Part shown: positions 259 to 53,962 of the stretch, piece by piece | Layout: each line of letters starts with the position of its first letter | How positions within the stretch are numbered: the first letter of the stretch is position 1 | Assembly: GCF_029867415.1 (NCBI RefSeq) | Contig: NC_081182.1 | Span: forward strand, 41,713,462 to 41,777,461 | DNA: 64,000 nucleotides | From: Vicia villosa | Lineage: Eukaryota; Streptophyta; Magnoliopsida; Fabales; Fabaceae | Direction of reading: 5' to 3' | Notes under the pieces: generated by a model | What the model saw: the letters and a program-made list of their open reading frames with translations, nothing else | Databases searched by the model: none | Told to the model about the DNA's origin: nothing | Made by a program: the position numbers and the translations under genes

Positions 259-3200
259 TCAGCTTCGGTCTATTATGCGTATTTCTTGAAGTGTAGGTTT
301 ATATTTTTTCAAATATTTACCATTCACCCTCAAAATTCGACCATCTGAATTTAATTCTTCAATTTCATATGCATTGTTTGAAAACACTTGCAAAATTTTA
401 AACGGTCCTTCCTAACTTGGGGACCATTTACCTAATAACTTATTCCTTTGATCCATGGGTAGGATAACTTTCCATACATAATTACCTACCATGAATGTCT
501 TCTCTTTGACTTTCTTGTTGTAAGCCTTCGCTACTTTTTCCTTTTGTCTTATTAACCTATCCAACGCTATTAGCCTTTCTTCGTCTAATTCTACTAATTC
601 ATCTAACATCATATTCCAGTATTCGTCAGACGAGAGACTGTTTTGTCGTTGAATTCTTGTCGACTGTAGGTGAATTTATGCAGGCAATACAGCATCATGC
701 CCAAATGTCAAACGAAATAGGGTAGTCTTTATTGCTTCCTTTGGTGACGTCCGACAAGCCCAAAGGATTTGGTCGAGCGTTTGATGCCAATTTCTTGGCT
801 TTTTCCCCACATGCTTCTTTATCAAATTTATAATAACTTTATTAGCAGCTTCGACCTGACCATTGGCCTGAGCGTAATATGGAGTGGATGTTAGCAATTT
901 AAATCATGTCTCTGCTGCAAAAGCTTGCATCTTTCGACCAACAAAAACTGATCCTTGATCAGTAGTAATAGTTTCTGGAATCCCATATCTGTAGATAATG
1001 TGTTTTTGTATGAAACTAATCACTGCTTCTTGATCAGCATTAACTAGTGGGATTGCCTCTATCCATTTAGTAAAATAATATATTCCTACTAAAATGAATC
1101 TTTGTTGCTTAGAAGATGCAGGTTTGATTTCTCCTATTAAATCCAAAGCCCATCCTCTAAAAGGCCAAGGTTTGACAATGGCATGCAATTCACTGGCTGG
1201 AACATGTTGAATGCCTGAAAATTTCTGGCACTCTTGGCATCCTCTTGCATATTCAATACAGTCTTTTAGAATTGTCGGCCAATATAAACCTTGTCTAAAC
1301 AACAGCCATTTCATCTTATGGCCTGACTGATGAGCTCCACAAACACCACTATGAACCTCTGACACAACCAAATATGCTTCAGCTTCACTTAAGCATTTCA
1401 ACAATACACCTTCAGCTGTTTTCTTGTATAAATCATTTCCTAATATCACATAGTTTAGAACTCTATATTTAATCTTTCGATCAGTTCCTCCGACTGGATT
1501 ATTTAGGTATTGGACCAATAGGTTTCTCCAATCAGCATCAGTCATATTGTCAATGGCAAAAATTTCCAAGGCATACAAATCTTTACTTTCAACTTTACTT
1601 TCAACATTATCACCTACCCCCTCGAATTTTGACGTCGACAATTGACCTAACTTGTCTAATACTTCATGGGTTTCTTTATTCTTGATCTCGACAATATCTT
1701 CTAACTTGTCTTTAGAAACTCTATACCCAGAAGCAATTTGTGCCAATTCATTGGCAATGTAATTGTTAGATCTTGGTACATGCAAGATCTCAACATGTTC
1801 GAATTTTTCTAATAAGCGTATCACAATTGCATAATACATTATTAGATTTTCTTTGATGCATTTATACTCTTTTTTGATTTGTCGAATTATTAGCTCAGAA
1901 TCACCTCGAATCTCAACTCGTGTTGCCCCTAAATCTATTAGGGCCTTCAAACCAGTTATCAAGGCTTCATATTCGACCTCATTGTTAGAGCATATTTCTT
2001 TCATTTTATAATGGAACTTTGTTGGAAGTCCTTTGGGAGAAATAATCAAGACTCCAATGCCTGATCCATTTTTGTGACTAGAGCCGTCAAAAAACAATTT
2101 CCAGTTGGTTCGTTCGACTTGATTTACAAACAATTCGACTAACCCATGGTCGACTATAAAATCAGCCACAACTTGTCCTTTCATAGCTTTTAAAGGAACA
2201 TATGTTAAGGAAAATTCAGTTAGCGCTAAAGCCCACTTACCAATTCGACTATGCAAAATTGGTTTAGACAACATATGTTTAATAACATCAAAATGAGAGG
2301 ACACATACACATCAACAGGCTTTATATATTGCTTAAGTTTGTTACATGAGAAATACAAGCATAAGCATAATTTTTCAATATCATTATACCTAGTTTCAGC
2401 ATCTACTAGGGTTCGATTTAGATAATATATAGCTCTTTCGACGCCATTATCATCCTCTTGGGCTAACATACTCCCAATTGTCGAGCCTGATGCAGCTATG
2501 TACAATTTCATACTTTTTGTCCTATTGGGGGGTAACAAAATAGGAGGCTTAGTTAAATAAGCTTTTATTTGGTCGAATGCCTGTTGATGTTCTTGCTCCC
2601 ATTTGAATTGATCTTGGTTCTTGAGCTTCACAAGTGGTGAAAATATCTTCGTTTTGCCACTTAGATTTGAGATGAATCTCCTCAAGAAATTAATCTTCCC
2701 CAACAATGACTGGAGTTGTTTCTTTGTTTCTGGCGCCTTTAGCTCCAAGATTGCTTTCGTCTTATTTTGGTTTATCTCAATGCCTTTCTTGTGAACCACG
2801 AAGCCCAGGAAATCCCCTGCATGTACACCAAAAGTACATTTTAAAGAGTTCATTTTGAGTCCATATTTCCTCATTCGTTCAAAAGATTGTCTAAGATGGT
2901 CTAAGTGACCATTTTCAGAGTTAGATTTTATTACAATATCATCAATATAAACCTGCATAAACTTGTCAATAAAATCATGAAACATGGAATTCATGGCTCG
3001 TTGGTATGTAGCTCCAGCATTTTTTAAACCAAAGGGCATTACTACCCATTCATAAGTTCCTAAAGCACCTGGGCATCGAAACGCCGTCTTAGGTACATCT
3101 TCGTCAGTTATAAAAATTTGGTTATAACCTGAATATCCATCCAATAAGCTGAGATATTCAAATCCGGCTGCAGAGTCGACTAACATTTCAGCAACCGGCA

Positions 3201-3894
3201 TGGGATATTCATCTTTAGGGGTAGCCTTATTTTAATCTCTGAAATCTATGCATATACGAAGGCTACCATTTTTCTTTATGACAGGCACTATATTAGCTAA
3301 CCATTCGACATACCTCGCAGTTCGAATAAACTTGCTTCTCAGCAATCTTTCAATTTCTACTTTGATTTTTTCCATAACCTCTGGCGCAAACCTTCTAGGA
3401 AGCTGCTTGATAGGTTTTTTACCTGGGTTTAAAGGTAGTCGATGTTCCACCACCTGTCGACCCAAACTAGGCATTTCGTGATAATCCCAAGCAAAACAAT
3501 CTTTGTATTCTCTTAGGAGTCGAATCAACTTGGTTTTTAAACAACTTGCAAGCTTCGTGCTCACATATGTAGGCCTTTTAATGATCCCATCACCCAAATC
3601 GACTTCTTCCAGGGGATCTTGAGCTTGCATTCTTTTGACTGATCCTAATGGATCCATTTCGAAACCTAAAGGTTCATCATCGTATATCCCATCAAGTCGT
3701 TCGACTTGGTGATCGACTTCAGGACTGTCCTCATTTTTTACCAACATGGCCTCAATAGCCATATTTTTCTCTAATTCGGCTTCTAAAGCCGTTCTTTCTT
3801 TGTTTTCGGCCAAATAAGCCGTTATTCGAGCCAGGTATTCTAACTCAGTGGTCATCATCTTTGACTGATGTCCTCTGCTCTGGTGGACTTTCAT
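259..3894 (-). pseudogene. Gypsy pol pseudogene (RT, RNase H x2, integrase)
   Basis: One continuous minus-strand frame runs from about 3894 to a final TGA at 259-261, broken by four nonsense codons: TAA at 3232-3234 after CIDFRD, TGA at 904-906, TAA at 676-678 and TAG at 412-414. Each looks like a one-base change of an expected residue (L, W, E, W). RT motifs are MPFGLKNAGATYQRAM and VYIDDIVIKS. The first RNase H reads LYIAASGSTIGS, lacking the usual first Asp. It is followed by a second, archaeal-type RNase H (LFFDGSSHKNGSGIG, NNEVEYEAL). Integrase shows the His/Cys zinc region (HQSGHK, CQECQKF) and catalytic DLIGE and TTDQGS; the Glu lies in ANGQVEAANK. The C-terminal tail includes VWKVILPMDQRN. 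Confidence 0.88.
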
Positions 3895-6800
3895 GGTTCA
3901 ATGGTTCATTAGGGTCTTCTTTATTCCAAATGAAACCATAATTTGGGTCTAAGTTCAGATACTTAGACACACTTTCATCAGAAGAATACACCTCTTCTGC
4001 TTTGTAGCAAGGAGCTACATTTGCCAGATGTTGGTCGAAGTGTCTACGACCACTTTCAGTTTTGTAATAACTTTGGTCAGCTTCGATATTCTCCACTATA
4101 CCATCTGGTCTCCAAATAGCCACACGCTGATGTAAGGTCGAAGGAACTGCCCCTATTCCATGGATCCATTCTCGACCCAACAGCAGTTTAAAATTTGCCT
4201 GCGATGCAATCACCATAAAGATGGTTGACCTGACAGTCGAACCAACATCTAGTTTTACTTGAATTACTCCAAGTATTCCACTTGTATTGCCCTCATAATT
4301 AGACAACACCATATTACGGGGCCTTAAATCTTTGTCAGATTTACCCACTTTCTGAAGTGAGGAATAAGGCATTAAGTTTACAGCAGCCCCACCATCGACA
4401 AACACTTTGTTTATTGGAACATCATCCACTATCGCCCTTATGAATAAAGGCTTCAAATGATACATCATTCCTCGACCTGGCCTCTCAAACACAGCCTTTT
4501 GCTCTTCTACCACTCCTTTTCCCATTACATAGTAACAGATAGGAGTTTCTTCCACGTTCTCGTCAGGAAGAAAATCATCTTCGTTCTCAGATACCACAGA
4601 TACTCTGTCGAACTCTGCTGGAAGTACAGAGACAATTCCACAGTCGATTAGCAACTCATCTGACTCTATGTCAAAGTTGTCGTCGACCTCTTCGTCCGAC
4701 AGTGGAGAATACTCAGGCTCTTTTTCTGTATTAAGGATCGGAGCATCATCGTCAACCAATTCTTTAATCAGTTTCTTTCCTAGGATCATTCCTGCAGCCA
4801 GTCTTTCATTTGCTATTTTAGCCTGCTCTTCAGTCAACTTCCTGTGAAAAGGCTTTGGCTGATAGTGAGAAAATCCTGCCTGCACCATTTTCAAATTTTC
4901 CTGTCCATTCTTATGGCTTCTTTGGTAACGCCTCCACTGCGTTCGAGTCATGGGGTTCTTTCCTTTGTAGTTTGGCGATATGTAATCTTTTCTTTTAGAT
5001 CCACTATCCGTCCAAGAGCCTTCAACATTGGTTCCATCGCCTTGAATCTGCCATTCTGGGCGTTTACCTCTGAAGTTAATGGGTTTCACCCATTTGTCTT
5101 CAGGGACATCCGTCTTGGGACGGAAAGTCCTTGGTTTTTCAAACATCTTCCTGTATTCTCCAGCCCTTCGACCACTGTTTTCTCTTGTGTACATGAATTG
5201 ACGATTCTTGCCTCGACGAGGATCGAACCTCACTTTGTTTGCAGCATCGACATTGAAAACAGCATCACACCTTGGGCATAATCCAACTTGAGAGTTGTTA
5301 TTGTGGCATCTCTCAAGGAATTTCAAAAGACTTTCTTTTGGTTCAGGATAAACCATGTTCAAAACTTTGCCATCAGTAGCGCCGTTTTGCTTTCTAACGA
5401 AACCATCAGTAGTCTCGACCATCATCACATCAGCAAGCTCAGTATAGTGAGCCTCTTCGACTTGCAAAGGATCAATATCAACTTGCATTGATGACTTTGG
5501 CTTTTCTCCAAACTGTAACCTTCCTTCTTTCAAAGTTGTTTGCACCAATTCCCTGAAAAGGACACATTGAGAAGTTTTATGACCCAAGAAATTATGAAAT
5601 TTACAAAATCCTCTTTTTTTCATTTGTTCAAGAGGAGGATTTTTAAGTCCTGGGGGTACTATGATTTGCCCATCAGAAACCAACAAATCAAATATTTCAT
5701 CACATTTTGTTATATCAAATGAATACGTTTTACTAGAAAATTTTTCATTTTTACTTTCAATCAGATTTTTATCTTTTGAGGGCTTGAGCAATTTACAGAT
5801 ATATGGTGGCCCTGGCTTTAATTCAGCCACGTTGACCTCTCCCTCTTCGTATTCACTGTCGCTATTAGAGTCGAACTCACTTGTAGTAACATAAGCTATC
5901 TTTTCTTTCTTATAATATTTACTAGCTCTGGCTTTTTCAGCTTTTAGCCTTTCGACCTGGCGTACTCTATCTGCCAGTTGTGCCATATCTCTCAAATGTT
6001 GGGTGTCTAATTTCTTCCTTATGGAATAATCTAACCCACCTGCAGCCATTTCGACTAACTCATGTTCAGGAATTTGTGTGAAACATCTAGCTTTCAGTAA
6101 CCTAAAACGGTTTAGATAATCATCGACTGGTTCTGTACCCTTTCGCCTAACTCCAGCCAATTCTTTCAAACTAATTTTCGACTGTCCCATATAAAATTGT
6201 TCATGGAACAATCGTTCTAATTGGTTCCATGAGAACTAAGATTGTGGAGATAAGGTCGTGAACCAAGTAAATGCATTTTTTGTTAAAGAACTTGGAAAAT
6301 ACTTCATCTTTAGATTTTCATTGTTTGCTATTTCTCCAGCCTCTGTCTGGAACCTAGCAATATGTTCGACTGTCGACTCGCCAGTCTCACCAGCAAATTT
6401 GGTGAATTTTGGGACTTTCCACCCCCTAGGCAATTCTGTTTGCCTTACATATTCTGACAACGGGGAAACGAAATTTGGTCTATGCAAACCTACATTTATT
6501 CCATTCTGAACTAAAATTTGTTCGACTACATTAGAGATATTATTGTGTCCAACATTGACATCTTGCTGGATGTTCCTAAGAACCTGGTCAGCATCTTGAT
6601 GCCTTTGTACTATTCTAGGGATCTCTTGCTCAATTTGATCTCCTTGTCCTATAGGTTTGACCCCTCTCACTTTCAACCCTTGAGTAGTTGAAAGGTTTGG
6701 TTGTGGGGGCGCTCCAAAGAAATCTGCAATTCTGGCCATTTGTCCGGCCAATATCTCATAACTTTGGTTCGTGTTATTTATCATGGGAGTAAAAACAGTT

Positions 6801-7285
6801 CCCATTTGTTGAGTAAGGGCATTCACCATTTCATGATTACTTTCGTCTATTTGTTATCGAATTGACAACATTGACGTAGTACTTAAAGATGGCAAAGCCT
6901 GGTGATTATATCCTATGCCTATAGGTCGACCCCCTGGATTTGATGTGCTTGTAGCCATCATGCTGTCAGAATATAATGAAGGATTTGTGTGCAAACCTTG
7001 CATCATAGACGTGGGCATTCCAAACTGAGGGTTAAAACCTGGTGGAGGCATCATTCCATGAAATGGCGGTCGTAACGGATTAAACGGTGACCGTACATTC
7101 GTTGGTGATGATACCAATATTGCTGCCGTCGATCCACCAGTATTTGTTGTTCTAACTGGGGATGAATCTGCGGCACTTTGTGGTGTTGTTCCCGTCAGAA
7201 CAACCCCTTGATTTCCAGAAAGATCAGAATTATTTGTATTAACTTCAGCCATGTTAGTTAATTTTCGACCACTTCTTAATATCAT
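3845..7285 (-). pseudogene. Gypsy gag-protease pseudogene
   Basis: One minus-strand frame starts at ATG 7285 (MILRSGRKLTN) and ends at TGA or equivalent at 3845, interrupted by TAA at 6854-6856 and TAG at 6236-6238. The middle shows a retrotransposon gag domain (NAFTWFTTL, then LFHEQFYMGQ, VDDYLNRFRLLKARC) and a variant zinc knuckle with His replacing the second Cys (CKFHNFLGHKTSQC). The protease region follows, with active-site-like VFVDGGAAVNLMP and ILLGREWIHGIGAVPS-type sequence. The frame overlaps pol by about 50 bp; pol is in the +1 frame relative to it. Confidence 0.85.
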
Positions 7286-8880: not shown

Positions 8881-11390
8881 TCAAGTGTGTATCATTCCAA
8901 GCATCATCTTCAACTTGTAAAATAGTTCAATCTTTAAAGGTTTCGTAAATATATCTGCAATTTGTTCTTCAGTGGGACAATACTCGATCACCACTTCTTT
9001 TTCAGCTATCAACTCTCTTATCTTATGAAACCGAATATCAATATGCTTGGACCGTCCATGGAAAACCGGATTCTTACTCAGTGCAATTGCCGACTTGTTG
9101 TCGCAATATATCTTTTTAGGACTATTTTGTTTCTGATGTATCACTTCTAAAATTCTTCTCATCCATACTATTTGAGTAGCACAACTGGTTGCTGCAATAT
9201 ATTCAGCTTCAGCTGTAGAAAGTGCAACAAAGGTTTTTTCTTTGAAGACCATGAAATTGCACCTGTGCCCAAATGAAATGCGTACCCTGACGTGCTTTTT
9301 CTTGTTTCTATATCTCCAACCCAATCACTATCTGTGTATCCAACAAGCTCCACTTCATTATTACTAGCATAAAAAATTCCATCAGTCAGTGTACCTTTGA
9401 TATATCGAAGAATCCTCCTAGCTCCTTGCAAATGGCTAACACATGGTTCTTCCATGAATCTGCTGAGCAATCCAACTCCATATACTATACCTGGTCTTGT
9501 CGCAGTCAGATATCTTAAGCTTCCAATCAAACTTTTATAATGGGTTGAGTCTACCCTCTTTCCATCATTTTCTCTTATCAGCTTTAACTTTTCTTCAACG
9601 GGTGTGTAAACTGGCTTTGAATGCTCCATCTTGAACTTCTTCAAAATATCACTTGCATACTTCTTTTGAGATATGAAAATTCCATCATATTGTTGGACGA
9701 CCTCAATGCTAAGGAAATAGGACATTAGGCTCAAATCTGTCATTTCAAAATGTTGAATCATAGCCTCCCTGAATTTTGTAATCATCTCTAAATTATTTCC
9801 AGTGAAAATCAAGTCATCAACATATAGGCACACAATAAGGACATCTCCAGGATCAAAGTTGATAATCTCCTCATCAGATGGATCATTATCATTGCCCAAA
9901 ACACAATCTTGCAGTCTGGCTGGTAATCTACGCAGCCTTTGTTGTCTGTTGGATGTTTCTGGCTCATCAGGCGTTGTATGTTGTCTGTTGGATGTCTCTG
10001 GCTCATCAGGTGTTAGATTATATTCATTCACCTCTTCGTAATCATTTGAAGTCACTATTGGATCTTTTTGTGACTTTGAGGACCAATCCCACATTCCTCC
10101 TTCATCAAAAGTCACATCTCGACTAATAATCACCTTCTTTGTCTCTGGATTGTAAAGCTTATAGGCTTTTGAGTTTGAACTATAACCAACAAAGATACAT
10201 CTTTCTTCTTTGTCATCTAACTTCTTTCTCAATTGATCTGGTACATGAGCATATGCAACACATGCAAAAACTCTAAGATGTCGAATTGAGGGTCTTCTTC
10301 CATTCCAAGCTCCTTCGGGCGTCTTTTCTTGGACGCTCTTTGTAGGACACCTGTTTAAAATATAAACTGCAGTAGCAACAACTTCTGCCCAAAACTCCTT
10401 AGGCATTTGTTTAGCCTTCAACTTGCATCTCACCATATCCATGATCGTTCTATTCTTTCTTTCAGCAACACCATTCTGTTGAGGTGTGTACCTTGTTGTT
10501 AATTGATGCTCAATTCCATGTTGCTCAAAGAAACGTGTACCAGCGAGGTATTCTTGGCCTCTATCTGTTCTCAATGCTTTGATTCTACAACCACTTTGTT
10601 TTTTCACATATGCCTTGAATGCCTTAAAGGCATCACATGCTTCTGATTTCTGTTTCAAGAAATACACCCAAGTCTTTCTACTAAAATCATCAATAAAAGT
10701 AATAAAGTACTTACAGCCACCAGGTGTTGGTATTTCCACTGAACACAAATCTGAATGAATTATCTCTAGCAGCTTCTTTGCTCGCCAAGACATTCCAGTT
10801 GGGAATGAATCTCTATGCTTCTTTCCAATCTGACAAGTCTCACATACTCCTTTTGGAATATTCACAACAGGCAATCCAGAAACATATTCTTTTCTCGACA
10901 GGTAATTCAAGCTAGAAAAATGAAAGTGACCAAATCTCATGTGCCACAACCAATCATCATTTGGAATAATAGAACTCAAGCAAGGAATTTTTTCATGTTG
11001 AATTTTCAAAGTAAATAAGCGGTTTGGTGTCATTTTTACCTTTGTGATGAATATGCCATTTCTATCGATCAACGTGCAAAAACCATTGTGAATCTGCATG
11101 TTGTAACCTTTCTCCGACAGTTGTCCCATACTCAGGAGATTGTGATGAAGACCAGGAGCATAGAAAACATCACCAATAAAGTTTTGAGTTCCATCTTTCA
11201 ACCTAATAGCAATTCGGTCTTTCCCCAAAATTGGAATATTTGAATTGTTTCCAAACTTCACGGTAGATTTTACCGTTTCGTTTAGAGAAGAAAATAATTC
11301 CTTTTTCCCACACATATGATTACTACATCCAGTATCCAGATACCATATATCCTCTTCCTCAGAAAATGTATTACTGGCCAAAATTAAATT
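8881..11390 (-). pseudogene. Copia pol pseudogene with RT deletion
   Basis: From about 11390 the frame encodes protease (DTGCSNHMCG), the GAG-pre-integrase domain (LWHMRFGHFHFSSL) and integrase (HSDLCSVEIP, LRTDRGQEYL, NGVAERKNRT). A linker with a duplicated TPDEPETSNRQ unit follows. The frame then jumps directly to CLYVDDLIFTGN, so the N-terminal half of reverse transcriptase is missing although the frame is kept. The RT C-terminus and RNase H follow. Near 9231 one T appears missing in CCTTTGTTGCA, which shifts VALSTAEAEYIAATS and the rest to the frame that stops at 8881. The product would lack polymerase activity. Confidence 0.88.
9940..10016 (-). repeat. Tandem duplication in Copia pol linker
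   Basis: Two copies of a unit containing GTTGTCTGTTGGATGT and CTGGCTCATCAGG follow one another and encode TPDEPETSNRQ twice. They lie just before the junction of the RT deletion. Confidence 0.7.
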
Positions 11391-12476
11391 TTATGGATTT
11401 TCAAAGTACTCACCTGTATTTTGATACGAACTTTCTGCCACATTTGCCTGATGTTTGTATCTGCAATCAGCTGCTTTGTGTCCACACTTTCCACAGTGAT
11501 AACAACTATAATTCGTCCTTTCTTGGTTGTAGTTACCTCTTCCTCGACCACGATTGTTGAATCCAAAATTGTTTCCTCGACCATGATTGTTGTATCCAAA
11601 ATTATTTCCACCTCTTCCTTGATTGGATGGATTGAAATTATTGTCTCTCCATTGGTTAAAGTTGTCACGTCCTATTCCTCCATAATTTCCTCGGCCTATG
11701 CCTCTATAATTTCCTCTTCCTCTGTTGAAAGTATTTTGACATCTTTCTTCTACAATATGACTTGACTCAGAAGTGTTGTTGAAATTCACCTGACTCTTTA
11801 AAGTTTCTTCTTTTACCACTTTTTCAGTCTTTTCTAATATTCTATTGATATGACTTTCAATGCTTCCCTGTAATTCTGCTACAGACAGAGTATCTGTATC
11901 GTGGGAGTCAATTATTGTAGTCACCACATGGTCAAACTTCATCCACATCGTACGTAGAATTTTTTCTACCACTTTGGTATCTGGAATATCTTCTCCATAT
12001 ACTCGCATCTTGTTGACGAGATTTATAACACGAGAAAAATATTGTTCTACTGTTTCTGAATTAGACATTTCGTACCTTTCGTATTCTCTACGCAGCGATT
12101 GTAATTTGGACTTCTGAGCTTTCTCTACTCCTTTATGTGACAGCTTCAATATGTCCCATGCTTCTTTAGCAGTTTTGACATTTGCTATTTTTCCAAGTAT
12201 TGAGTAATCAATTCCTTGATGAATTTGTGAAAGTGCCAATTGGTCCCTCCTACGAGCGACATCATCAGCTCCTTGTTGTAAACCAGGATCCACAAAGCTC
12301 CAAACATTGTGAGCTTTTAGATGTGTTGTCATCAATAATTCCCAGTAACTGAAGTCTAACTCTGAAGTTAATTTTGGACCGGACCAGACAAAATTGTAAT
12401 TGTTTGCCATATCTTTCTCAACAAAATACCCACAATAATTTTTGACACAATGAGAACTCTTTTGTTCCTCACACAC
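11391..12476 (-). CDS. Copia gag
   Basis: The open frame spans 361 codons; the likely true start is the internal ATG at about 12409 (MANNYNFVW), since upstream residues lie in the leader. It contains the UBN2-type gag domain (YWELLMTTHLKAHNVW, KEAWDILKLSHKG, EYERYEMSNSETVEQYFSR), a Gly/Arg/Asn-rich region of repeated RGNYGGIGR and NNFG units, and a CCHC zinc knuckle (CYHCGKCGHKAADC) that binds RNA. It ends at TAA 11391-11393 in frame with pol. Whether that stop is original or a nonsense change cannot be told. Confidence 0.9.
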   Translation of the reverse strand: MCEEQKSSHCVKNYCGYFVEKDMANNYNFVWSGPKLTSELDFSYWELLMTTHLKAHNVWSFVDPGLQQGADDVARRRDQLALSQIHQGIDYSILGKIANVKTAKEAWDILKLSHKGVEKAQKSKLQSLRREYERYEMSNSETVEQYFSRVINLVNKMRVYGEDIPDTKVVEKILRTMWMKFDHVVTTIIDSHDTDTLSVAELQGSIESHINRILEKTEKVVKEETLKSQVNFNNTSESSHIVEERCQNTFNRGRGNYRGIGRGNYGGIGRDNFNQWRDNNFNPSNQGRGGNNFGYNNHGRGNNFGFNNRGRGRGNYNQERTNYSCYHCGKCGHKAADCRYKHQANVAESSYQNTGEYFENP

Positions 12477-45912: not shown

Positions 45913-46738
45913 TTTTTATTAAATGTATTAGTGACATGACATGCCTTGTGCCTCTTTTCTATATAATATAATGGGTGGTTTGTCTTTTAAAAAAAATTCT
46001 AGTATTTGTATATTTATTTTTAAAATTTTATGTTGGACGTAAATTAAAAAAAAAAAACTTGTACTTATCTTTAAAATTTAATGTTGGACAAAAATAAATA
46101 TAATCTTGGACTATAACTTGACATTAGACTTTGTGTTTAATAAAAACAGTCAATATACATAATTTTTAGACATTACAATAAAACTCATACTCGCGGATAC
46201 TCACCTGAACCTACTCTGAAGTTGACGGGAAAAATCCACTTTGACTGAATTTGGATTCGGATTTGGATTTTTCCCGATTATAAAATATGAGAAAGGATCG
46301 GGTAACAGAGACACTAGTACTCACTCGAACCCGCCTCATTTATTTCATTATATACATTATTATTTATATTTCATAATTTATATTATTAAATATGTGGCTG
46401 ATGTTTTAATAATTTGATTTGTATTTATTATTTAAAATATTTGAAATATATGTACTGGATTTTTTTTAGATTGTTTTATTTTATTATTTATAATGTAATT
46501 TGATTTTTGAAAAAGTAAATATTTTTATGGGTTTAATATACTTCACCCCCTGCCAATATAGCGAGTTTCGGTTTGGCCCCCTTGAATGTTTTTTTTAGCA
46601 AACGCCCCTTATAAAACCCAAAACCTGAATTTACCAAACCCTTTTACCATATTTGCTGACTGGGCTTTGACTTTGGATGATGTGGCAAATAGATTGTATA
46701 AATAATTAATTGAATTTAAAAGCATTAATGATAACACA

Positions 46739-47095
46739 TTAAAAAACCTGAAAATATTCATCTACCATCTTCCTCCAAAATACAACACAGTTTGGCTTAC
46801 AAACCAACAATGCAAAACTCATTTATTTGCTTCTGAAGTTGCTATCCATAAAGCTTTATCAACAAGCGATTCTCAAACTTTTGACCCTTACGATGCTGAC
46901 TTTTTCTTCATACCCGTTTACGTTTCCTGCAACTTCAGCACCATTAATGGCTTCCCTGCTATCGGCCACACGCGTTCGTTAATTTCTTCAGCAATTCATC
47001 TCATCTCCTCTGATTATCCTTTCTGGAACCGAAGCAGGGGCTCCGACCATGTTTTTGTAGCTTCCCATGGTTTCGGTTCTTGTTTCCATACCCTG
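46739..47095 (+). pseudogene. Captured exon of FRA8/F8H-like exostosin glycosyltransferase
   Basis: A clean 119-codon frame without stops reads LKIFIYHLPPKYN, WLTNQQCKTHLFASEVAIHK, FDPYDADFFFIPVYVSCNFS, TINGFPAIGHTRSLISSAIH and YPFWNRSRGSDHVFVASHGF, ending GSCFHTL. This matches the exostosin domain of the FRA8/F8H/PARVUS-region class of Golgi glucuronoxylan glycosyltransferases, with the N-terminal membrane anchor and C-terminal half absent. It lacks a start codon (an in-frame stop lies just upstream) and ends at a GT donor at 47096. Confidence 0.85.
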
Positions 47096-47245
47096 GTAAA
47101 GAAATAAACAACTCAATTACCAAAGTACAGGACCTGAGATTTATCAAAGTTTTGGGTCATTTTGTTTTTTTAGAGTCGTTGCTCTTTATTTATCACTAAT
47201 GTATGCCATTTGTTTCATCATGTTTCCTATGATTTAATTGAGCAG

Positions 47246-48092
47246 GCGTTAGAATCTAGGCAGCTACGTAAAGGTGGTATAGTCACTGAAGGGAGTGTCG
47301 GAAGCACTGCCATTAGTTTTGCTACCGTTGCTCCTGCTTATGGATGCAAATGCCATGTGGTTATTCCAGATGATGCTGCCATTGAGAAGGTATATATGTT
47401 CAATAATTATTATCAAATAACTCTATTATGCTTTGCTTACAGTCTAGCTATAGCCTGTAGTTTTTGTATATGATGATTATCTTTCGCAAGGAGCCAAGGA
47501 ATATTTTCTACAAAGCTGAACTTAAAATTCATTTGGATTTAAGACAAGCCAAAAGCTCCCCAGAGTATTGGTCTTCCTCGCCTACTGCCTCCTTGTTATT
47601 TTTTTCTTTTGTTTTGGTTGTAATTTATTGGTGGAACAAAATGATTGAACAAATCAACAGAAGGGTTAACACAACAACTATGTCTTATTTGGCAGCTTTA
47701 AAAATGTTTTCTGTTGTGGCTGTGAATTGTCTGTGTCGATATTGTGCTTTCCCTTGCTTTTCATATTTCCTTCTTAGTTTTTCCACATTATTTCTTTGTT
47801 TACTGAGGTGTTTCGTTTATTCTATTGGAACCATCCTTCAGTCTCAAATAATTGAAGCTCTTGGGGCAAATGTTGAAAGAGTACGACCAGTGTCAATCAC
47901 TCACAAAGACCATTTTGTTAATATTGCAAGAAGACGGGCATCTGAAGCAAATGAGATTGCATTTAAGCATAGAAAATCACAATCAAATGGAACAGACTCG
48001 CAACAAACAAATGGTTATAAATCTGACGGACACAACCACAACTCACCCTTTCCTAGATGCTTTTGTTTTACATGTTTTTGTTTTCAAATGTG
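47246..48092 (+). pseudogene. Captured exons of PLP-dependent cysteine-synthase-like enzyme
   Basis: Exon 47246-47389 (48 codons, after AG) reads ALESRQLRKGGIVTEGSVGS and TAISFATVAPAYGCKCHVVI, PDDAAIEK. After a GT-AG intron, exon 47842-48092 reads SQIIEALGANVERVRPVSIT, HKDHFVNIARRRASEANEIA and NGYKSDGHNHNSPF, then runs into foreign sequence to TGA 48090-48092. The GSVGSTA segment is the phosphate/substrate-binding loop region of the tryptophan-synthase-beta/cysteine-synthase fold. The PLP lysine exon and the C-terminal domain are absent, so no enzyme activity is expected. The intron frame 47464-47841 is open but is not coding. Confidence 0.85.
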
Positions 48093-48933
48093 AAGTGAGG
48101 ATCATGCATAAAATATTCATGCCAACTTTTTTAGAATTGTTCAAACACAATCTGTTACTGCAAATATCTTGTTTCTTTCATATTTTATCATAATTGTATG
48201 TTCTTTGTAGGTGGATTAATCTCTTTTGTTTCAAAATACAAGTTGTACAGTTTGCAAATAGTTTGCAAATATCTCGTCTCCTTTACATTTTTCGAAATTT
48301 ATACATGATAGCAACCTTGCTCATGGGATCACAGTATAAAAAGCATGCTAAAAGAAGAACTAATATTTTAATTAATATTTTAATTGAATATAAGGGATAA
48401 AAGGGTAAAAACCATGGTCATATACATTCATTAAGTCTTATTTTGCCACATCATCAAAGCCCAGTCAGCAAAGAGGGTAAAAGGGTGTGGTATATCCAGA
48501 TTTTGGATTTTATAAGGGGCGTTTGCTAAAAAAAAACATTTAAGGGGGCCAAACCAAAACTCGCTATATTGGCAGGGGGTGAAGTATATTAAACCCTATT
48601 TTTATTAAAAAAAATTGATTTTACTAAATGGATGGTGGTGGCGTGGATACCCGAACCCGTTTGGGATGAGTTTGAGTTTTAATTCTCCATCCCCATTTGA
48701 GTTTGAGGCGGGAAACGGGGATTGATTGAGGATTCAGGTTTGGGTTGGGAGGAGGTAAAAACCAACCCCGACCCGCCCCGTTGCCATGTCTATTAATTCT
48801 TCACATCTTCCTTTGACACTTAATGTAATGGTTGAAACACATTGGAGAAAAATATTAAATCGAACATGTCCTAACCGATTTATATCGAACAAATAAATGA
48901 TGTATAATGTATTAGGTAAAAAATTATAATGAA

Positions 48934-49154
48934 TGTTAGTGCACAAGGTTTAAGAAAGCAAGAGGAAAAATATTACTACTCTGCAATGACGACCACAAAA
49001 GTGTAAGAAAAATTGATTAGGTTTTAAATGACAACTACTACTAGTCTATTTATACACTGAAAAACTAGGGTCACATAGGCAACATACTAAAATATTAAAT
49101 TACCCTTCAATATCATCCTTTAATTTAGGATTTCCTATACAAAAACTAACAACA
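48934..49154 (-). repeat. 3' LTR of Copia element 3
   Basis: 221 bp, plus strand TGTTAGTGCACAAGG to ACTAACAACA, followed by polypurine-like minus-strand AAGGGATGAAATTGG at about 49155-49171. Confidence 0.8.
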
Positions 49155-49171
49155 CCAATTTCATCCCTTAA

Positions 49172-51060
49172 GCGAAGAAATTGATCTGTCTTGATTGCCT
49201 TCTTCGGAACGTCTGTCAGCTGCTTCTGACTTGACTTCTCATAAAATGATACTTTGTCTCAATATGTCTGCTTCTCCCGTGTAGTATTGGATTCTTGACA
49301 AGATTGATTGCAGTCTTGTTATCAATCATCAGATTCAGAGGCTTGTCTACTTTGATCTTCAAATCCTGCAATAGATTCAAAAGTTGCACAGCTTGACATG
49401 CAGCTACAACGCCTGCAATTTACTCAGCTTCACACGTTGATAGTGCAACAACAAGTTGCTTCTTGGAACACCAAGAAATAGGACCTCCCAGAAACTTAAA
49501 CAAGTATCCAGAAGTACTTCTTCTATCAACTCTATCTCCACACCAATCAGAATCAGAGTAAATCATCAACTCTATATTTGTCTTCCTTCCATAAGGAATA
49601 GTCCTCCAAACTTCAGAGTTTCCTTGATATACCTCATACTCCTGACAGCAGCTTGATAATAGGACCACTTAGGTTTACTCATGAACCTACTAATCATTCC
49701 AACTGCATAGCAAATATTAGGTCTGGTATTACACAAATACCTTAAAGAACCAACCAACTCTTTGAAAGTTGTAGCATCCACATCCTCACCATCAGAGCCA
49801 GAATCCAATTTATGGTTGGTTTCTGATGGAGCGATAACAGCCTTACAGTTCTTCAGCTTAAATCTCTTCAGAAGCTCAAGTTCATACTTCAATTGATGAA
49901 AAACTATACCTTCTCAGAGTACAATACCTCCATTCCTAGAAAGTATACCAGCTTTCCAAGGTAATTCATTTCAAACGCATTCATCATAATCTTCTTAAAC
50001 TTAACTACCTCTTCAGAACAGCTACCTGTCATCAATATATCATCAACATAGAGACACACCACAATTATATTGCCTTCAAAATGTTGTACATAAACTCCAT
50101 ATTCCATCTCACATTTCTGAAACCCCTGCTTCTTGAAAAATGAATCAATCTTCAAGTTCCAGGCTCTAGGTAGGGGTGTTCGCGGGCCGGTTTCGTTCGG
50201 TTTTGAGAGAATTCGATACCCAAACCGATTAAAATTAAATGGATTGGTTTGGATTGGACTTATAATTTTTTGCGATAAAGCCCAAACCGAACCGATCCGA
50301 GAAACAATAGATTGATTTAGGTTGGATTGATCGGGTAGATAAAAAATGCAAAAATATTTTTAAAAAATAACTTATTTACAAAAATTAATTTTTCATTATA
50401 TTATAAAAAATATAATATTAATAGTGTTCAAATTTAAATATTATACTAGAAATTTTTCTCAAATAGATTCAAAAATATCTAACAAGAAAAAGATCTAAGA
50501 TTAAGACTTTTGAATCTATAACTAGTCACTTGAATTAATATGATAATGAATGTGTTTCATAACTTTATGTTCATTTATCATATTACACTATCAATTTTCT
50601 AATAACAAACTAAAATAGCATAACTTGTCCACACACAACATTTAATTTTTTTTCTTATTGAAGTTGAATGCTTCGTAGTAATTTTCATGATAATTAATTA
50701 TGGTTGGTTTGGGTTGGGCTTGCGGGTAGAAAATTGAAAATCTGATGCCTGAACCGATTGTCATTGGATTTCATTGCTTTGGTTCGGTTCTTGCCCGAAT
50801 TGAAAAAATATCCAACCCAAACACTATAGTTTGGTTCAGATTATGGTTTGGTTTGGATTTACCCGAACCAATGAACACCCCTAGCTCTAGGCGCTTGCTT
50901 CAATCCATACGAGGCTCTATGTAACTTGTACACCACCCCTTCCTGATTCTTTTTCACAAATCTAGGAGGTTGTGACACATATACCTCTTCTTGTAACGGA
51001 CCATTCAGAAATGCAGACTTCACATCTAGATGCATCAGAGGCCAATTCCTATTTGTAGCT
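49172..51060 (-). pseudogene. Copia RT and RNase H pseudogene
   Basis: From right to left the minus strand reads [35 protein letters not shown], then the MITE, then WNLKIDSFFKKQGFQKCEME, CLYVDDILMTGSC, LGKLVYFLGMEVL, LRYLCNTRPNICYAVGMISR, DSDWCGDRVDRRSTSGYLFK and VVALSTCEAE. A TAA replaces the Tyr expected after CEAE, and the rest of RNase H follows (DNKTAINLV). Frames change at least twice. Confidence 0.83.
50171..50883. mobile_element. hAT-type MITE inserted in Copia RT
   Basis: 713 bp with perfect 11-bp inverted ends TAGGGGTGTTC/GAACACCCCTA and a perfect 8-bp duplication GCTCTAGG at 50163-50170 and 50884-50891. Subterminal AACCGAACCGA/GGTTTGGATT-type repeats are present. It splits the RT motif GLKQAPRAW. 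Confidence 0.93.
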
Positions 51061-51784
51061 AAAGCAAATCACCATTTTGATTGTTTCATGTCTAGCTACA
51101 CGCGCAAATACCTCCAAGTAATCTAGCATAGGTTTCTGAAGAAAACCTCTGGCCACTAGCCTTACTTTACGCTTGCCAATTGATCCATATGGCTTAAGCT
51201 TTATTTTGAAAACTCACCTGACGCTGATGGATTTCTTTTCCTTTGGAATCTTAATCAACTCTTAAGTCTTCTTTCTTTCTATAGCCTCAATTTCTTCTTT
51301 CATGGCATTTAGCATACTTTCTTCTTAAGAGCCTCTTCAATACCCATGGGTTTAGAGTCTACTAACATGACACACTGAAAAAAATTATCCTTCAGAGTCT
51401 ACTTTAGTGTACTACGATGTGTCAAATTCTACAAACCTTCTTTGTATTCGTATGATTATTTGTGGTCTCTAAACAATATGAGATACTTGACCACCTTCAG
51501 AAATTGGATCGCCTTCAGAAGCTCTTTCTTCAGAAGTTCCAACTTTAGAGTAATGACGGGCGTCAGAGGCTGGACTACCTTCAGAGGGTCCACCTCAGAG
51601 TCATGATTACCACCAGATTCAAAATCTGGATCAGAATTAGATTCATCATTGTCTCATCTTTAGAGTCTTTAGAATCATCTTCTGAATCTGACTCTTCTAC
51701 ATAACTTTCAAGTTTTGACTTATCTTCAGGAATGAATTCAGACTTGCTCCAATCCCATGCTTCTGACTCTTTTATAGTGACGTC

Positions 51785-52705
51785 TTAGTTGACTTCAACT
51801 TTATTAGTTTCTGGACAATAAAGCTTATAAGCACTTGTACTGTGGTACCCTACCATAATCATTACTTTATTTCTATCATTCAGCTTTTGTCTTCTAGCTT
51901 CTGGAACATGTTTGTAACATACAAAACCAAAAACCTTCAGATGGCTAACACTTTTCTTATCTCTAGTCCACTTCTCTAAAGGAACAATTTTCTTCATCTT
52001 CTTCGTTGGACACTTGTTCAGCAAATAAGTTTCTCCCCACAAGATGTTAGGAAGCTTATTTTCCTTCAGCATGCTTCTCGTCATATCAAGCAAAGAACGA
52101 TTTCTTCTTTCAGCAAGACCATTATGTTGAGGAGTATAGGGAGCAATAACCTCATGCTCAATTCCATTCTCATCATAGAACTTCTGGAATTCTCTAGAGG
52201 TATACTCACCTCCACCATCCGTTCTGAGAATTTTCAGCTTCTGGCCACTCTGTTTCTCATCCTTCACCTTGAACTTCTGGAAAACAATAAACACCTCATG
52301 TTTAAACTTAATGAGTGTTACCCACGTTATTCTTGTTAACTCGTCCAAAAAAGACACAAAATATTTATTTTCTCCAAGTGAAGATTCTGGAAATGGTCCA
52401 CACACGTTAGAATGCACTACTATCAAAGCATGTTTTGCTCTTGGGGCTACTTCTGACACAAATGGAAATCTGGGTTGCTTACCTTTCATGCATACCTCAC
52501 ATGACTTCTCAGGCTTCACAATCTTCGGAATGCCACGCACGAGCTTCTTAAAACTCATATGCCATAGGTTTATGTAGTTCAGATGCCCCAACCTCTTGTG
52601 CCATAACTTATTATCCTCTTCAGCGTCTTCTGTACTAAGACATTCTGTTTCAGCTGTCTCCACATTCACCTTGAATGTTCTGTTGCTTCCCTGATCAGAT
52701 TCCAT
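51785..52705 (-). pseudogene. Copia integrase region
   Basis: A 306-codon open piece holds the GAG-pre-integrase ([34 protein letters not shown]) and integrase core. DDE residues sit in [12 protein letters not shown] (expected D changed to N), [11 protein letters not shown] and [10 protein letters not shown]. The Asp to Asn change and the missing residues near [15 protein letters not shown] indicate decay. The stretch 51061-51784 is the degraded linker between integrase and RT; 52706-53004 holds protease remnants. Confidence 0.82.
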
Positions 52706-53004
52706 AATCAGCTTCTAATTGGAATCATACAACTTCAAGAGATTGTCCTTCATGACAACCGAGAAACCTTTCTCAATAAGCTGACCCACACTCATCAGAT
52801 TTCTCTTAATTCCAGAAACATACCAAAAGTAGAGGTTTTTGACTTCTGGAATCTATCACCGCGTCTACTCTTGGCTTCTGAACAAGAATGCTTCTGGTCC
52901 TTCTTGACAAACTAAAATTTCAGAGCTTGCTCAACCTCCCTCTCAAAGGTTCTTTCAGTCAGACGCAACTCTTGCGCCTCTAGACTGCTTTGCAGCTCTT
53001 CTAT

Positions 53005-53574
53005 TCACATGGTGTCCAGATCTTTAAAATGTTCAATTGCTACAACAATGTAATCAAATTGAGGAGTAAGAGACCTCAATACATTTTCTATGATTACTTG
53101 TTCAAAAAAGGTTTCTCCCCAAGCTTTCATCTCATTAGTGATTAGAATCACTCTGGAGATGTACTCAGATACCTTCTCGTTGTTCTTCATGTCGAGATTC
53201 TCATACTGCTTTCTCAGGGACTGAAGCTTCACCTTTTTCACTGATGTGTCACCACCGTAACATCTGACCAGTGTGTCCCACGCCTCCTTCTCCATCGTCG
53301 AATCAACTATTTTCTCAAACAAGTTCACATCCCACACATTGTGGATGAAGAACAACGCCTTCTGATATTTTTTCCCTTAGGTCACGCTGAGCATTTCTCT
53401 GTGCGTCATTTGCATCTTCTGGAAGTGCAACTGAGACATAACCATCGTCGACGAGATCAAGAGCATCTTGAGCGCCAAACAACACACGCATCTGAATCTT
53501 CCAACGTTCCAGTTCTTACCGTCGAACACTGGAAGTTTGGTACTCAGACCACCATTTCCGTTCATCCTCAACCT
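53005..53574 (-). pseudogene. Copia gag
   Basis: The N-terminus MNGNGGLSTKLPVFDGKNWN starts near 53565. A one-base loss just after NWN puts the next part (KIQMRVLFGAQDALDLVDDG) in another frame. The second piece reads VDSTMEKEAWDTLVRCYGGD, KLQSLRKQYENLDMKNNEKV and VSEYISRVILITNEMKAWGE. This is the UBN2-type gag domain; no zinc knuckle was found. Confidence 0.8.
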
Positions 53575-53766
53575 TGTGCAAGTGTCTCAGATCTCACCAA
53601 ACACAGTGTTCCCAATCCCGCAGAATCAGAAAATGTGATTCTGTTCCGATTTTGTTCAAGATTCTACACGAATACAAGAACTAAAGTCAATCACACAAGG
53701 CCTCACCGTTTCACTCGTGTTTCCCATGTTTTCCCGTGGATCTTAATCGGAGCTCTAGATATCAAT

Positions 53767-53962
53767 TGTTATTGCACAAGGTTTAAGAAAGCAAAAGGAA
53801 TAGTATTACTACTCTGTAATGACGACTACAAAAGTGTAAGAAAAAATGATTAGGTTTTAAACGACAACTGCTACTAATCTATTTATATATTGAAAAATTA
53901 GGGCTACATGGACAACCTACTAAAATACTAAATTATCCTTCAATAATTAACAACTAACAACG
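53767..53962 (-). repeat. 5' LTR of Copia element 3
   Basis: 196 bp, plus strand TGTTATTGCACAAGG to ACTAACAACG; the last A of CA appears mutated. The minus strand next to it reads TTGATATCTAGAGCTCCG, a worn primer site. Confidence 0.75.

Follow-up and report, generated by a model that had tools for sequence, protein, structure and literature searches.

The window, a stretch of 64,000 nucleotides of Vicia villosa DNA (C3:41713462-41777461), contains a 2,068-bp element at positions 46529-48596 that is very probably a Pack-MULE, a non-autonomous Mutator-like element, belonging to a numerous vetch family and carrying the products of multiple capture. Its three internal segments have their closest matches at three separate loci (C64/C284, C7:89.65 Mb and C67), and we estimate from these matches that the donor loci number at least two and probably three. 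A sequence-only reading of the window had proposed a Pack-MULE with pieces of two unrelated genes. The Pack-MULE structure is borne out by the ends, the 9-bp duplication and host-gene fragments with likely parents elsewhere in the genome (exostosin at C64/C284; PLP at C7:89.65 Mb, 83-93%). One outcome that was to refute that reading, a lack of parental genes in the rest of the genome, did not come about. Both gene pieces also hold, but that count was too low, as C67 is probably a third source. Features beyond that reading are the third segment, a 27-bp filler, a 30-bp exostosin 5' flank and the element family itself.

Boundaries and insertion of the element

Elements of the MULE superfamily have long terminal inverted repeats and a target-site duplication of 8-11 bp, usually 9. 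The window element has a left terminal inverted repeat of 161 bp (46529-46689, plus strand; alignment to the right repeat and genome matches) and a right one of 155 bp (48442-48596, minus strand; alignment to the left repeat), which agree in 145 of 162 aligned columns, and its outermost letters are GGGTTTAATATAC...GTATATTAAACCC. It is flanked by a perfect 9-bp duplication, TATTTTTAT, at 46520-46528 and 48597-48605, and a sister element at C7:91.6 Mb also has a duplication of 9 bp. The long inverted repeats and perfect duplication of the sequence-only reading are thus confirmed by alignment and at both flanks, and its element coordinates are exact, as the repeats start and stop at those positions. 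The best other genome match of the right repeat is the right end of the sister (94%).

A dispersed repeat forms the left flank (best 40 of 1,100 candidate copies scored, itself included). This host repeat of ~500 bp occupies window positions 46231-46528 and 48606 to about 48793, and it supplied an empty-site comparison. All four fetched related copies are uninterrupted across the insertion point, carry a single TATTTTTAT each, and are 86-89% identical to the joined window flanks; these four empty sites are related repeat copies elsewhere rather than the other allele of the window locus. The uninterrupted copies with a single 9-mer indicate that the window element is a true insertion.

Captured segments

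The first captured gene encodes an exostosin. A 30-bp piece of its 5' flank (46713-46742, plus strand; 29 of 30 bases identical to L053rc 941-970) is followed by part of exon 1, to about 47095, and the start of intron 1 (46740-47117, plus strand), which is 93.7% identical to the C64 copy (L053) and 92.6% to the C284 copy (L054). Between these two pieces, 530 bp of the gene are lost, and the joint is a 3-bp overlap, TAA. The exostosin exon of the earlier reading is upheld by Pfam Exostosin_GT47 (PF03016, E 2.5e-27). Pfam gives GT47 exostosin only, and the placement within FRA8/F8H, proposed by the earlier reading, is an assumption. The assembled parental protein matches solved-structure exostosins (E 2.1e-6), all of them from animals, and a relative on C2 was found by genome search at 77% identity. 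Over 3.4 kb the C64 and C284 stretches share 95.1% identity and, judging from this similarity, could be the two haplotypes of a single locus. Their differences over 348 bp of coding sequence are 12 synonymous and none nonsynonymous, a number that is high for alleles even in a heterozygous species. In the parent genes, the captured exon-1 part and the later exons read open.

The second segment (47141-48059, plus strand) derives from a PLP cysteine-synthase-like gene, including intron sequence, and was defined by alignment to L056 (C7:89.65 Mb) and by Pfam and NCBIfam models. It matches L056 in three blocks of 92.9%, 83.2% and 91.9% identity; the only other match listed in the genome is 91 bp in the sister. 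Two PLP exons had been proposed and both are real (about 47246-47389 and about 47842-48054), but the second is only the 5' part of an exon and not a whole one. The joined, typed peptide matches PF00291 (E 7.5e-13) and cysteine-synthase models, the latter all below the NCBIfam whole-protein cut-offs, as expected for a fragment, and the frame with the first PLP exon alone scores 31.7 bits against a Pfam cut-off of 35. The assembled parental protein matches cysteine synthases with E 1.8e-32. Within the intron, the stretch 47463-47515 has no above-chance match among the donor loci and family stretches compared.

Between the exostosin and PLP parts lies a 27-bp filler (47116-47142, plus strand), with a 2-bp overlap on each side. 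It is an exact copy of L056rc 2492-2518, a match that 0 of 60 shuffles reach. Its source is in the same PLP exon that contributed its 5' part to the element, 57 bases past the end of the captured block. At the joint between the PLP part and the third source, 13 bp (48056-48068, plus strand) match L069 1517-1529, which lies further on in the third source. Here 0 of 60 shuffles of that target reach the match, with eight targets tried, so that this stretch is only suggestive of a second filler.

The third segment (48082-48265, plus strand) corresponds to C67:569381-569622 with a 58-bp internal deletion, and is 90% identical to this source over 136 bp and 96% over 48 bp. The putative source looks gene-like by eye, and the segment has a 77% relative at C7:102992590. 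A second, partial copy of third-source sequence (48263-48291, plus strand; L069 758-786) follows directly, such that a 29-bp stretch of the source is present twice in the element, with 26 of 29 positions identical.

Together, the terminal repeats, the donor segments and a right end shared with the sister account for most of the element. Both the start of exostosin intron 1 and the PLP intron sequence are kept, which indicates capture at the DNA level and rules out RNA-mediated capture. In agreement with the earlier statement that the element lacks a recognizable transposase, a Pfam scan found none in its ten open frames. Beyond the exostosin and PALP matches, these frames gave only three hits below threshold (E 0.07-0.09), all to unrelated families.

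A family of related elements

We searched 2,034,964,285 bases in 1,888 contigs with the repeats and the captured parts, and the sister copies that the earlier reading had anticipated were found as a family of elements that includes the one at C7:91.6 Mb. The best 40 of 892 left-repeat candidates scored, the window copy included, are 96-100% identical. In some cases both ends of a single element are among the 40. From these we chose 20 stretches. Paired repeats are present in 15 of the 20, delimiting elements of 1.8 to 4.3 kb. A perfect 9-bp duplication flanks all of these elements but one (14 of 15); the exception, L044, has an 8-bp duplication with a mismatch. With the window element included, 15 of 16 complete elements have a perfect duplication, and this, with left-repeat matches genome-wide, excludes a chance arrangement. 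The five stretches without a partner repeat are L035, L041, L046, L048 and L049; L035 and L041 contain Ty3-type retrotransposon frames and L048 a copia-type gag.

The interiors are mostly unlike one another, with some pairs having up to 525 bp in common. A Pfam scan of 20 chosen frames from 16 stretches gave five matches above the curated cut-offs: carbonic anhydrase (L033), protein kinase (L040), lipoxygenase (L045), Med26/TFIIS (L036) and, in an unpaired stretch, TOC159 (L049). The other 15 of the 20 chosen frames had no match above cut-off, and NmrA (L032) and a response regulator (L048) fell below it. The scan also covered 10 further frames, from four stretches plus L048, among them the Ty3-type and copia-type frames named above. 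Three other elements carry mixed-gene cargo: L045 (C4:29.78 Mb) has exostosin and lipoxygenase pieces, L033 (C7:62.58 Mb) the exostosin 5' flank and carbonic anhydrase, and the C7:91.6 Mb sister exostosin, PLP and seryl-tRNA synthetase pieces. The window element is therefore not a single rare double capture. A well-preserved double capture in a legume had been regarded as less usual, a view that does not stand here: several-gene cargo is unexceptional in this family, which suggests that such capture is no rarity in at least one family of legume transposons.

The L048 stretch (C425:443430-453429) has a separate peculiarity. Three same-direction copies of the left repeat lie about 4.2 kb apart, each followed by the same response-regulator-like fragment just below the Pfam cut-off, and two of the units have a copia-type gag frame. 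It seems that an element with a nested retrotransposon was tandemly duplicated.

No autonomous element with the ends of this family was found in a partial, by-eye comparison of transposase and repeat positions. MULE transposase matches are abundant in the genome (150 of 7,041 candidates scored) and none could be tied to these ends, the nearest pair noticed in that comparison being about 42 kb apart on C3. The ends are likewise absent from the single 1.7-kb stretch fetched upstream of one transposase copy on C6, whose score neighbours that of a group of matches at an equal 107 bits. This group has 852-codon open frames on C1, C4, C6 and other contigs; its uniform scores and intact frames suggest a recently active MULE family.

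Order of capture

Pieces of the same exostosin gene occur with these left ends at 12 loci, the window included. In 10 of the 12, again counting the window, the match starts at the same parental base (L053rc 941), and this base lies at element position 184-191 in the nine loci where it could be placed. The two that do not start at this founder base are L045 (C4:29.78 Mb) and L037 (C123), whose match is 30 bp only. Both ends are seen in 6 of the 12 loci; L058, L061 and L064-L067 show the left end only. Internal deletions vary among these loci, and some are common to several.

The C7:91.6 Mb sister spans 2,562 bp and has its own perfect 9-bp duplication, TTTCTAGAA. It shares with the window element positions 1-513 (96.9%), 1107-1197 (98.9%) and 1778-2068 (window 48306-48596, plus strand; 96.2% over 291 bp). 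Between 514 and 2183 the sister contains other DNA. One part of it is a seryl-tRNA synthetase fragment (6gir as best match, E 4.2e-29; in Pfam only below cut-off), and another, which Pfam matched to nothing, we take by eye to be EXO84-like. The presence of exostosin, PLP and right-end segments in an element with a duplication of its own points to mobility after capture. The shared segments make it probable that the exostosin and PLP pieces were together before the two elements parted, with exchange between elements as another possible route. Among the 42 matches listed (38 of 38 candidates scored), no PLP match falls in the ten other exostosin-bearing loci, which suggests that exostosin came first, although loss in each is possible. 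This order rests on few elements, and inter-element exchange could mimic it.

A founder would thus have captured the 5' end of the exostosin gene, and its copies, spread by a transposase from elsewhere, would have suffered differing internal deletions. DNA of the PLP gene would then have been added in the lineage of the window element and the C7 sister. The third piece might have been gained in the window element or lost by the sister.

Mechanism of capture

The additions could be explained by a break or gap inside the element that is repaired by synthesis jumping to unrelated templates. Such jumps would occur at short microhomologies and would leave short fillers from the incoming gene. We consider it probable that cargo was added by template-switching repair synthesis of this kind; the 27-bp filler, the twice-present 29-bp stretch and the 2-3-bp overlaps favour this mechanism over plain joining. 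The joints in the window overlap by 3, 2 and 2 bp. Among seven distinct joints tried, overlaps of 2-4 bp are present in five; of the other two, one, in the sister, reads as an insert of 6 bases and the second was tried with a misplaced anchor. At least two matching bases are found in 17.5-20.4% of random joints, so an overlap of 2 bp can readily arise by chance.

Plain end joining of broken DNA, without template-switching synthesis, would fit the overlaps of only 2-3 bp in the window element. However, both the filler, whose source lies farther on in the same incoming gene, and the duplicated third-source stretch are more simply accounted for by copying, and we regard end joining as unlikely. 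The cargo might also have been acquired in a single repair event, with the sister and other members later losing or replacing parts of it. Internal deletion is indeed seen across the family, and the sister has both exostosin and PLP pieces, probably joined before the split. On the other hand, the ten exostosin loci with no PLP match suggest that exostosin was first, even if each could have lost the PLP piece, and a single event appears to us unlikely.

An old degraded gene cluster, or an assembly artefact, lying between inverted repeats by chance has no supporting point that we found. It is contradicted by the empty related host-repeat sites, by the duplications and by a second insertion with common cargo, and we give it practically no credence. 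It is also very improbable that the captured pieces are kept as a functional chimeric gene or as a regulator of their parents. Compared with the nearest genome copies, changes are mostly synonymous in both the exostosin part (15 synonymous and 9 nonsynonymous against the C64 copy) and the PLP part (13 and 9), in a setting where about 74% of changes are nonsynonymous in a neutral simulation. But the two exostosin copies already differ by 12 to 0, so that the synonymous excess can predate capture. A diverged donor allele can account for it with no need of selection on the captured frames, an explanation that was set aside. Moreover, the window element and its sister differ by 4 synonymous and 4 nonsynonymous changes in the exostosin part, and the 133-residue exostosin frame has no methionine. 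If about 74% of neutral changes are nonsynonymous, the nine counted here correspond to some 12 neutral changes along the element branch, or about 3.5% of 348 bp. By the same comparison, the exact donor alleles probably differ from the nearest copies in the genome.

Within the template-switching mechanism, a more specific process of cargo exchange can be put forward tentatively. The ends would stay fixed and be used again, and the interior would undergo repeated breakage and refilling. Refilling would proceed by template switching, which would land first downstream in the incoming gene and then jump back upstream, leaving a short downstream filler as a diagnostic mark at the junction. This signature has one firm example (27 bp) and one suggestive one (13 bp). 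If true, cargo exchange would give plant Pack-MULEs a readable signature of mechanism together with the order of capture.

Relation to known elements

How plant Pack-MULEs take up gene pieces is an unsettled question that the vetch family addresses. It offers loci with a founder joint, parents in the same assembly, an exact 27-bp filler and a sister whose cargo is partly replaced, so that the sequence can reveal in which order and by what means the pieces were captured.

Rice Pack-MULEs have long repeats and 9-bp duplications. In legumes, Pack-MULEs were reportedly described in Lotus in a 2006 study. Among the listed titles and abstract openings of the Pack-MULE literature on legumes, Medicago truncatula, Lotus japonicus and Vicia, with few subscription journals covered, none describes a Vicia Pack-MULE family. 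The vetch family differs from the rice elements in having its own terminal sequence and a cargo turnover that is traceable across loci with one founder joint.

Rice Pack-MULEs are non-autonomous MULEs with host gene fragments (PMC13317346, PMC8903248), drawn in some cases from several loci (PMC8903248). The latter paper also describes frequent multi-locus cargo in maize Pack-TYPE elements, and non-autonomous Pack-CACTA elements of Arabidopsis, some with cargo from several loci (PMC8903248). These have CACTA ends, whereas the 9-bp duplications of the vetch element fit a MULE instead. Soybean Tgm-Express is a legume DNA transposon with host gene fragments (PMC1947982); it resembles the vetch element as a legume carrier of host genes but belongs to the CACTA superfamily. 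For animal Pack-TIRs, one study presents gap-filling and FoSTeST models, in which template switching is proposed, with a median microhomology of 2 bp, and its authors call the application of these models to plant Pack-MULEs worth exploring (PMC8277862). The elements in that study are from animals; the present case is a plant family with a filler and partly replaced cargo.

Neighbouring features

Direct repeats that are 89% alike (48934-49112 and 53767-53945) flank an integrase-like frame at 51785-52705. This feature beside the element, 48934-53945, is probably a copia-type retrotransposon, a name based on the look of the frame. Elsewhere in the window, long minus-strand frames at 904-6829 and 9168-12476 resemble retrotransposon polyproteins by eye.
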